Origin: a virus
Length of the DNA stretch: 46,361 nt
Virus record (IMG/VR): IMGVR_UViG_3300007609_000039
Coordinates: 1 to 46,361 of that record
Direction: 5' to 3' (one strand)
The notes below the pieces were generated by a model. The model ran no database searches. It saw only the letters and a program-made list of their open reading frames with translations, and was not told the origin of the DNA. How positions within the stretch are numbered: position 1 is the first letter of the stretch; each line of letters opens with the position of its first letter. Shown one piece after another: positions 40,405 to 46,361 of the stretch. Position numbers and translations under genes: made by a program.

Positions 40405-41160
40405 CTAAAGTATTAGTGTGCCGTCCTGATGTTTCGGCCAGCTGTCGAAGCGCTCGATGTATCCGGTCTCTAGGTAGTTCTTCCACTTAGATACCGCTCC
40501 TACCATCAGCTCGTAGCCCTCCTCCTGCATCTGCTCAGATAGCGTGTAGGGCACCACGTCGTAGGGGTAGTTCTTCTGCATCGCTATGAACTTAAACTGA
40601 TCCATCGTGTAGCCGAGCACCTCGCAGTAGAACGCCGCCTGAATGTGCCAGTTGTACTTGTACACGTCGCGTCTGAATGCCTTAGGCGATGCGTTCTGGC
40701 AGGTCTTGATGTCCGACAGGAACTCAGGGTTCTTCACGTCTGGTCTTACCTTCACCTTGACGCCCATGTACTCGGAGTAGTGCGACAGCTCGACCTCCCC
40801 CTGCAGGTACATCTGCACCAGTGGGCTATCTCTTACGCTGTTCTCTAGTCCGGTGATCACGCCTCCGTGCTCAGCCTTCAGCAGTAGCTTGCCTGTCTTC
40901 TGATACTCAGCGTACAGCTCCTTTCCTGCCTTGTACGTCCTGTTCATAGGCTCCATCACTAGGTAGTTCTTCAGGTACTCGTTAGGCTCTAGGAACCTAG
41001 CGTGCACAGCCGTGCCGAGGAACATATCCTCAGACTCCTTGTACGGGGTAGAGTGCAACAGGTGGTACACCGACATAGACGCTATGGTCTTCACCGCTGA
41101 TGATGATAGGTAACGCTTGTTCGCGTGGTACTCCTCGTTTGTCTCTACCTTGGTTGTCAT
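40405..41160 (-). CDS. RecE-like PD-(D/E)xK exonuclease
   Basis: A 251-residue protein. 'LGTAVHARFLEP' (48-59) is the conserved N-terminal region of the exonuclease VIII/RecE-like family (DUF3799). D141 (VRPDVKN), D150-x-K152 (LSDIKT) and Q174 with Y178 (HIQAAFYCEV) form the PD-(D/E)xK active site in the right order. It would resect double-stranded ends to expose 3' single strands for annealing or recombination, together with the SSB gene downstream. No Erf/RecT annealase is visible. It overlaps the preceding 99-residue gene by four bases. Confidence 0.88.
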   Translation of the reverse strand: MTTKVETNEEYHANKRYLSSSAVKTIASMSVYHLLHSTPYKESEDMFLGTAVHARFLEPNEYLKNYLVMEPMNRTYKAGKELYAEYQKTGKLLLKAEHGGVITGLENSVRDSPLVQMYLQGEVELSHYSEYMGVKVKVRPDVKNPEFLSDIKTCQNASPKAFRRDVYKYNWHIQAAFYCEVLGYTMDQFKFIAMQKNYPYDVVPYTLSEQMQEEGYELMVGAVSKWKNYLETGYIERFDSWPKHQDGTLIL

Positions 41161-44788: not shown

Positions 44789-45102
44789 GGCTCAATAAAG
44801 TAGTCTTGGTTAAACGTAAACTTCTGCCCTCTGTAGTTAGGGTTAAATACTAAGCGGCCCTTGCCGTCGCGCTTAAGCGCTATCGCTTCCTGCGTCGTCT
44901 GCTCGCACAGCGTCTGTAGCTGTACGCGGGTCAAGCGCTCGTTCTCGTACACTAGCACTAGCGTAGGCTCAACGTCGCCCTTGTACTCGCCATCGATAAG
45001 GCTCCGCTTGACGGGAGCCCTACCCACTAGCTTGTTCAGGGTCTGCGTTATCTCTTCTGTGGTCTTGGGGTTGTTGTTCAGCCCGATATTTAGTGTTGTC
45101 AT
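44785..45102 (-). CDS. Hypothetical protein
   Basis: A 105-residue protein (MTTLNIGLNNNPKTTEEITQ, 'YKGDVEPTLVLVYENERLTR', 'GKGRLVFNPNYRGQKFTFNQ'). Sheet-rich with one helix (TRVQLQTLCEQTTQEAIALK); a Gly/Arg-rich end suggests a compact barrel. No family is recognised. It overlaps the first processed cistron (45099) by four bases. Confidence 0.65.
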   Translation of the reverse strand: MTTLNIGLNNNPKTTEEITQTLNKLVGRAPVKRSLIDGEYKGDVEPTLVLVYENERLTRVQLQTLCEQTTQEAIALKRDGKGRLVFNPNYRGQKFTFNQDYFIEP

Positions 45103-45329
45103 ATGTGGTTCATTGGTCTAAAGTCCATTGCTCGTACATCGTTGATGTAGCGCTTGCTCAGCACCTTTGATATCACTTGCACCACGTAGAACATATCTCT
45201 TGGCGCGTTCTCAGGTCTGTTGTCCCAAACGTTTCTAGCTTCTCTTAGTGAGCTCTCTAGCCTCTCAGTGCTAACGCCCTCACAGGCTCTTCTAAAATCC
45301 TTTGCAGGTGTTCCAAAAATTGTAATCAT
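45099..45329 (-). CDS. Hypothetical protein downstream of hammerhead ribozyme
   Basis: A 76-residue protein starting at ATG 45329 (MITIFGTPAKDFRRACEGVS); the longer TTG start at 45392 would put the ribozyme core inside the coding region. It is helical and basic (ESSLREARNVWDNRPENAPR, 'VQVISKVLSKRYINDVRAMD'). Its ATG is 14 bases after the end of ribozyme stem I, so after self-cleavage the mRNA for this and all later leftward genes would begin with a 5'-OH 21 bases before this start. Function is unknown. Confidence 0.65.
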   Translation of the reverse strand: MITIFGTPAKDFRRACEGVSTERLESSLREARNVWDNRPENAPRDMFYVVQVISKVLSKRYINDVRAMDFRPMNHI

Positions 45330-45343
45330 TGCTTTTGAGTTAT

Positions 45344-45412
45344 GGTTAAGACGCGCAAGCGAATTCGCTTCGCTCATACGCGTTTCGTCCAATAAGGACT
45401 CATCAGTTAACC
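45344..45412 (-). ncRNA. Hammerhead ribozyme (type I)
   Basis: Minus-strand 5' to 3': stem I GGTTAA (plus 45407-45412), core CTGATGA (45400-45406), stem II GTCC-TTATT-GGAC (45387-45399), GAA (45384-45386), stem III ACGCG (45379-45383) closing with CGCGT (45351-45355), C17 (45350), stem I TTAACC (45344-45349). All invariant hammerhead nucleotides are present, with a GUC cleavage triplet; stem I pairs perfectly over 6 bp. Stem III holds a perfect 14-bp palindrome AAGCGAATTCGCTT forming its own hairpin with AATT loop. The upstream gene's TAA lies in stem I. Cleavage between 45350 and 45349 would separate the first leftward cistron from the rest of the operon. Confidence 0.93.
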
Positions 45413-45679
45413 TTTGCTTGACCGGCCGTTATTGTAGATAGACCAATAAACTTCTTGTATCTGAGACTCGGTGTCGATTGACTTCATGGTGAAAATGTCC
45501 TGCTCGTGCACCTTCTTGGTGCCCCACCTGTTCTCTAGGTAGGTGCTAATCTCGCCGTGCTCGTACATGCTCACCCATTTATGCTTTAGGTCTACATCAA
45601 AGGTGTACTTGTGTACCTTGCCTTCGGCTAGCTTAAGTTCTTCAGCGATTAGGTTCAGTAGGTCATAGATAGTTTTCAT
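45407..45679 (-). CDS. Hypothetical first cistron of leftward operon
   Basis: A 90-residue protein (MKTIYDLLNLIAEELKLAEG, 'KVHKYTFDVDLKHKWVSMYE', 'GEISTYLENRWGTKKVHEQD') with a C-terminal helix DTESQIQEVYWSIYNNGRSS. Mixed alpha/beta, slightly acidic; not recognised. It is the first leftward gene after the long structured leader, so it is probably an early protein. Its stop is in stem I of the hammerhead, which means ribosomes finishing here would unfold the ribozyme, linking translation and cleavage. Confidence 0.7.
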   Translation of the reverse strand: MKTIYDLLNLIAEELKLAEGKVHKYTFDVDLKHKWVSMYEHGEISTYLENRWGTKKVHEQDIFTMKSIDTESQIQEVYWSIYNNGRSSKG

Positions 45680-45699
45680 AGTGTGTAGTGTTAATGGTT

Positions 45700-45870
45700 A
45701 GTCCCTATGCAAGGTTTCGCTCCTTGGCCACTTAGTGGTAAGCCCGTCGGCACATAGGGTTAGGTATCCGAACCTGATTCGCCGCGTACTAAGGTCACCC
45801 ACTTGTTTGTTCGCATATGTTGCGGCCGCATCTTCGTACGGCACTAGTGGTCATCCCTAGGCTAGCAGTA
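45700..45870 (-). ncRNA. GC-rich structured leader with three diverged repeats
   Basis: A GC-rich block upstream of the leftward operon in AT-rich surroundings. CCCTATG (45703-45709) and CATAGGG (45753-45759) close a 7-bp stem around CAAGG-TTTCGCT-CCTTG (45710-45726) and a CCAC/GTGG hairpin, giving a cloverleaf-like outline with a T-arm-sized third arm. Three related segments (TTCG followed by ACTWAGTGGTCAYCCC) start at 45716, 45778 and 45833. Palindromes CATATG, TGCGGCCGCA, CGTACG, CACTAGTG, CCTAGG and GCTAGC crowd 45814-45866. It may be a cis-regulatory RNA, an origin or a packaging signal; the strand is inferred from the operon. Confidence 0.5.
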
Positions 45871-46361
45871 AATCAGTATTTCAAAGAACGTCCCGACATC
45901 ATTGTTATCGTTTGACATTGCAATGATATGGCAGAATGTTAATACGTGTCAAGTTTTTTTTCAATTATTTTTAAAATCCCAGCGTTTATGCGGCCTGCGA
46001 GAGGTAAATTTTTTTTTCGATGTTGGATGTTATCAACAAAATATAGGCTCAGCCCACGCTATCAGAGGGATAGGTAGCGATTTGGTGGGGGTAATGGCCG
46101 CGATACAGGCGTTTAATGGTTGACGTTATGGGGACGGGAGTTATTCCTCATCTCAAGGTACCTTGCAATGCAAAATAATGCAGAACGAAAACGGTGCTTC
46201 ATATGCATAAGTAGATTTAAGTAGGTATACACCAGCCACAAACAAAACCTGAAAAGTTTGACTTCATTACATATATATAGGAGGGGGGTGGGTAAATAGA
46301 AACGACTTTCCTGTGGCGCGCGTGTACGTGAAATATATATATAACCCATTTTCTACATATA
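45870..46361. other. AT-rich non-coding window end
   Basis: No convincing gene in nearly 500 bases: the frames present start with TTG or have implausible composition. It contains two long T runs (T8 at 45953, T9 at 46009), one DnaA-box-like TTATCAACA (46030-46038), AT repeats (ATATATATA near 46275 and 46335) and a G6 run. This could be the control region for leftward transcription or part of a replication origin or genome end. Nothing more is supported. Confidence 0.55.
45878..45889 (-). promoter_or_regulatory. boxA-like antitermination element
   Basis: The minus strand reads GTTCTTTGAAAT, very similar to the boxA found before ribosomal RNA genes in Bacteroidetes (GTTCTTTGA). Its place at the head of a long structured leader of a 14-kb operon would suit Nus-factor antitermination. 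A 12-base match could be chance. Confidence 0.35.

Follow-up and report, generated by a model that had tools for sequence, protein, structure and literature searches.

Hammerhead ribozymes that occur in clusters in phage genomes cleave both in vitro and in E. coli, and in 2011 they were proposed to process long polycistronic phage transcripts (PMC3088659). Not every consensus sequence is active, as four of 18 tested consensus hammerheads were not (PMC3088659). In the haloviruses HF1/HF2, the 5' end of an mRNA maps no more than 3 nt from the site of hammerhead cleavage (PMC3088659). The function of hammerheads in phages is regarded as an open question (PMC6155905), and the reason for their gene associations is still unknown (PMC10085705). 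The ribozyme described here is a further clear case of this known phage ribozyme type. On the evidence of its sequence, it is very probably a genuine type I hammerhead that cuts a leftward early viral transcript between C45350 and U45349.

The stretch of DNA analysed, hereafter the window, is 46,361 nt long and constitutes the whole of the IMG/VR virus record IMGVR_UViG_3300007609_000039. Judged by its terminase, portal and primase, it lies near the Flavobacterium elemo phages and the Cellulophaga phages; the nearest record with annotation is MW202828, and the host of the phage is probably a Flavobacteria-like bacterium. Genes A and B, which open the leftward operon as its first and second ORFs, lie 77 nt apart on the minus strand. 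Gene A, the upstream cistron (45407-45679), encodes 90 aa, and gene B, the downstream cistron (45099-45329), encodes 76 aa from the ATG at 45329, or 92 aa from an alternative one at 45377; no homologue was found for either. The following three junctions of the operon are 4-nt overlaps, and a hammerhead is present at only one junction.

The original prediction of a complete hammerhead between these genes was right in every coordinate: all of its elements are present on the minus strand at 45412-45344, and the ribozyme is of type I. Stem I begins with the 5' strand GGTTAA (45407-45412), the last three bases of which (45409-45407) are the TAA stop of gene A. The catalytic core CTGATGA, C3 to A9 (45400-45406), which was aligned to Rfam RF03152 and RF00008, is followed by stem-loop II (45387-45399), in which GTCC at 45399-45396 pairs with GGAC at 45390-45387 around a TTATT loop that fits TNANT. 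The core GAA, G12-A14 (45384-45386), then leads into the stem III hairpin (45351-45383), where ACGCG (45383-45379) pairs with CGCGT (45355-45351) below an upper stem. The cleavage triplet GTC (45352-45350), read from the sequence like the GAA, ends at the C before the 3' strand of stem I, TTAACC (45344-45349), which is the predicted 5' end of the downstream product. Thus, all three perfect stems that had been claimed, GGTTAA/TTAACC, GTCC/GGAC and ACGCG/CGCGT, were found paired. The features that define type I are all in place, namely the core CUGANGA with GAA, an A15.1-U16.1 pair, an H17 preceding the cleavage site, an open-ended stem I, and stems II and III closed by loops in the minimum free energy fold of an 81-nt stretch. 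From membership of the hammerhead family, cleavage is predicted to fall between C17 (45350) and U (45349). The ATG at 45329-45327 begins 20 nt past this cut and 14 nt past the end of stem I, the latter as the original prediction had it, so that the predicted post-cleavage leader of gene B, TTAACCATAACTCAAAAGCA (45330-45349), is 20 nt long, a length that agrees with the ATG distances surveyed below.

Energy minimization of the 81-nt stretch gives precisely the hammerhead fold (-26.7 kcal/mol; z -3.68), a stability reached by none of 200 shuffles. With a descriptor that requires the core and three stems and scores base pairs, counting G-U as half, the window hammerhead scores 16.5; in 13.9 Mb of the order-1 shuffled window, the maximum was 10 and only three matches reached 9 or more. 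No second hammerhead was found in the window by either the descriptor scan or the covariance model. The Rfam hammerhead models, with which the original prediction was to be checked, match the site in a permissive search (RAGATH-1-hammerhead, 24.6 bits; Hammerhead_3, 20.9 bits), but both matches fall below their cut-offs. The whole window yields no match at the gathering thresholds, and the permissive search elsewhere in it gives chance-level matches only. A covariance model of our own, built from 65 other viral hammerheads with the window and its closest early-region relative left out, gives the window 63.7 bits (E 2.6e-11 over 215 kb). Stem I is the weak element, with a predicted pairing probability of 0.89 in an 86-nt context and 0.03-0.71 in longer ones, under an energy model that ignores tertiary contacts. 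The window has the TNANT loop together with an A at both -7 and +7. Among the first-scan matches listed, a set chosen without selection on stem I, both A residues accompany a TNANT loop II in 28 of 28 cases and another loop in 27 of 98, an association whose significance is inflated by shared ancestry. It suggests that loop II may make a tertiary contact with the stem I side.

The closest early-region relative is the uncultured contig L203, the primase of which shares 87% protein identity with that of the window. Its corresponding operon contains five type I hammerheads, which score 58.7-79.5 bits with our covariance model and 25.9-28.6 bits with RF03152, and the ATGs that follow them lie at +20 to +22. 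The original prediction would have fallen without covariance support in related phages, and this support was found in compensatory stem II and III changes relative to L203. In the comparison of six sequences, stems II and III have both-sided changes at three pairs, every pair cell is paired, and the covariation score was reached by none of 500 shuffles. Stem I, GGTTAA/TTAACC, is common to all six and hence invariant between the window and L203; it covaries in the wider hammerhead set. Pair counts in that wider set are high, but part of it was chosen by pairing, and the claim of covariation therefore rests on the six-sequence comparison and on matches to a pattern without pairing, GGTTAACTGAYGAG..CGAAAC. 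As this pattern contains no pairing requirement, it provides a fair check of the stems: among the matches listed, stem II has at least 4 bp in 124 of 140, and in 135 of 140 stems I and III match and the cleavage dinucleotide is TH. The genes that flank the ribozyme are not homologous between the window and L203, while the operon further along is, the first shared gene among those compared being E (69.5% identical). On these grounds, the ribozyme seems either older than its present neighbours or to have moved between junctions.

The region ahead of gene A was also inspected. A leader of about 236 nt (45674-45915, minus strand) contains a CCCTATG...CATAGGG pair and has ACTAACCATTAA ahead of the ATG. 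A promoter-like site lies at 45952-45923; four such matches were found against 2.7 expected, and a match is no evidence of function. Window positions 45968-46039 and L203 positions 611-683 form a 73-nt alignment of 90% identity, though the early genes after them are unrelated, and this conserved stretch is perhaps a promoter or operator. A search for a second ribozyme in the gene A leader (45674-45800) gave no Rfam match and folding no better than shuffles, and the L203 leader (790-1012) likewise folds no better than shuffles. The L203 leader ends in GTCTTAACCATAA..ATG like the post-cleavage leaders of that contig, yet without a hammerhead core ahead of it. A nucleotide search of a phage collection returned no relative of the ribozyme region. 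A search with the exonuclease gene (40405-41160) returned one distant viral locus, L001, which has no hammerhead, and none was found in the annotated relative MW202828. The few hammerhead-like descriptor matches among 80 terminase loci (L123-L202) had low scores or long unpaired inserts and were treated as spurious.

The arrangement of the window, in which the ribozyme sits between a stop codon and the next ATG, had been thought unusual. It is not, as hundreds of other hammerheads in viral DNA have a comparable layout, and processing of phage transcripts was proposed in 2011 (PMC3088659). A first pattern scan of viral contigs, made without selection on stem I, gave at least 120 stretches, and a second scan, with the GGTTAACTGAYGAG..CGAAAC pattern, gave at least 120; together with other loci, these contain at least 273 distinct type I and at least 51 type III hammerheads by the descriptor. 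For 244 type I hammerheads among the matches listed, we surveyed 300 nt on each side for ORFs of at least 50 codons, taken as simple open frames and not as curated genes, and used positions shifted by 300-1000 nt as controls. In 78% of the 244, an upstream ORF stops no more than 16 nt away from where the core starts (5-13% at the shifted positions, with 3-15% as the range of these controls across both scans), and an ORF-opening ATG lies 14-45 nt past the cut in 74% (14-25% at shifted positions). Both are in place in 59%, against 2-6% at shifted positions. The first-scan matches alone give 77% for the stop, 69% for the ATG and 54% for both. The ATGs are concentrated +18 to +28 past the cut with a peak at +20 to +24, and the window, where the stop lies at -3 and the ATG at +20, is typical. 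Our literature search, the coverage of which did not extend to subscription journals and preprints, found no paper on this stop-codon geometry. Several contigs (L029, L056, L081, L105, L109, L112, L017 and L036) carry four to seven hammerheads per few kilobases, with many copies at successive gene junctions. In the Pelagibacter phages Jormungand and HTVC131P (L329, L332), hammerheads lie ahead of a MarR-family gene and an integrase, and Jormungand has ardA close by, a gene linked with hammerheads previously (PMC3088659).

The original prediction also held that the ribozyme cuts the mRNA between cistrons. The geometry of the stop and the ATG fits this claim; the cleavage in vivo we infer, as we do its purpose, the separation of cistrons and the fixing of mRNA ends. 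After cleavage, the gene A mRNA would terminate in the folded ribozyme right past its stop codon and carry a 2',3'-cyclic phosphate. A new 5' terminus would be created for gene B and the translationally coupled genes that follow, with a 5'-OH and a short, A-rich, unpaired leader of 20 nt before the ATG. Cleavage may, on the other hand, be subject to translation: ribosomes finishing gene A would melt stem I and the core, cleavage would be confined to times when translation of A has slowed or ceased, and the end of the gene B mRNA would depend on gene A translation. Such control is physically plausible because the gene A stop codon sits in stem I, and it would suit a stem that is weak and context dependent. 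Conserved bases of the ribozyme (TAA at -3 or TGA at +1) supply the stop in 87 of the 244 type I hammerheads listed, and the stops near the type III hammerheads listed lie mostly 16-40 nt ahead of the ribozyme 5' end. However, compact packing in gene-dense phage genomes yields the same geometry, and the excess of TAA at -3 comes partly from the selection for GGTTAA in the second scan, without which the count is 24 of 112 listed. We consider this gating possible but rather doubtful. Equally tentative is its extension to phage type I hammerheads as general termination-linked cistron separators, in which the stop would lie in stem I or the UGA of the core, the terminating ribosome would gate folding and cleavage, and the leader of the next gene would be fixed at about 20-24 nt.

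The ribozyme could also be mainly a recombination joint, with near-identical junction copies allowing early genes to be gained, lost or swapped and with cleavage being secondary. The five L203 copies do share stem I and leader, and the genes flanking them are unrelated to those at the window copy, with homology resuming further along the operon. Nevertheless, a pure joint does not need the compensatory changes that keep stems II and III paired, and we find it unlikely that recombination is the main role. Another possibility arises from the in-frame ATG at 45377-45375, inside the stem III hairpin, which the original prediction missed and which gives gene B two possible starts. If gene B started there, cleavage would cut its codons and the ribozyme would lower its expression, a reading that draws on the frame being open from 45392 through the ribozyme. 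But an open frame of about 21 codons is expected by chance in roughly one case in three, and this ATG is buried in the most stable stem, with a pairing probability of 0.96-0.97. The ATG at +20, by comparison, falls within the survey cluster of +18 to +28 and matches the L203 copies at +20 to +22. Given the survey geometry, the copies in L203 and site accessibility, 45329 is favoured as the gene B start, and an origin at 45377 appears quite unlikely. Finally, the presence of one copy in the window against five in L203, with no other copy left in the window, is what an inactive relic of a decayed L203-like array would leave. Decay is hard to reconcile with core and stem positions that are all undamaged, with a stem II that differs from L203 by paired changes, and with the retention of the positions linked to the suggested tertiary contact, and this explanation is very unlikely.

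Taking the hammerhead as a working separator of genes A and B, the combination of a stop codon at or inside the ribozyme with an ATG about 20-24 nt past the cut offers a testable account of the role of such ribozymes, in which cistrons are separated with defined ends. This account possibly includes coupling to translation. A BLAST search with the window hammerhead led to cultured phage carriers, and such ribozymes are present in related cultured phages that infect Flavobacterium sp. BAL314; a functional test is therefore independent of the uncultured virus. One of the cultured carriers is the Flavobacterium phage elemoC_14-1A (L328), a related phage for which the elemo-group terminase is about 45% identical. 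The core of its type I copy is intact, with a stop at -8 and the deposited start of the downstream gene at +28, in agreement with the surveyed layout. It differs in having an AGGCAA-like stem I instead of GGTTAA and an extra type III copy before the first early gene. In this phage, the annotation omits the upstream 21-aa ORF that ends at -8, and a deposited reverse-strand CDS (L328:3962-4069; PHANOTATE) that spans the hammerhead is probably a false gene.

Among the described systems, the HHphage ribozyme of HF1/HF2 (PMC3088659) shares with the window a place in an early operon, lies 13 nt before a start codon and has a mapped mRNA 5' end near the cut. In contrast to the window copy, it has a variant core, belongs to an archaeal virus and lies ahead of the first gene, not between two cistrons. 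RAGATH-1 (RF03152) is the best Rfam match, at 24.6 bits over the whole model, and has the same type I architecture. However, the window stays below its gathering score of 56.3 and matches the upstream P0-like hairpin of the model only with mispairs. The phage and prophage type I hammerheads (RF00163; Perreault et al. 2011, PMC3088659) differ from the window in that the latter has a single copy and a longer stem III (33 nt) and does not reach the RF00163 cut-off. As in that class, hammerheads flank individual genes of phage operons, with a single copy in the window, five copies in L203 and four to seven in several contigs. The window shares with these ribozymes the core, the three stems with an open stem I, the site between genes of a polycistronic phage operon and, in relatives, the clusters at successive junctions.
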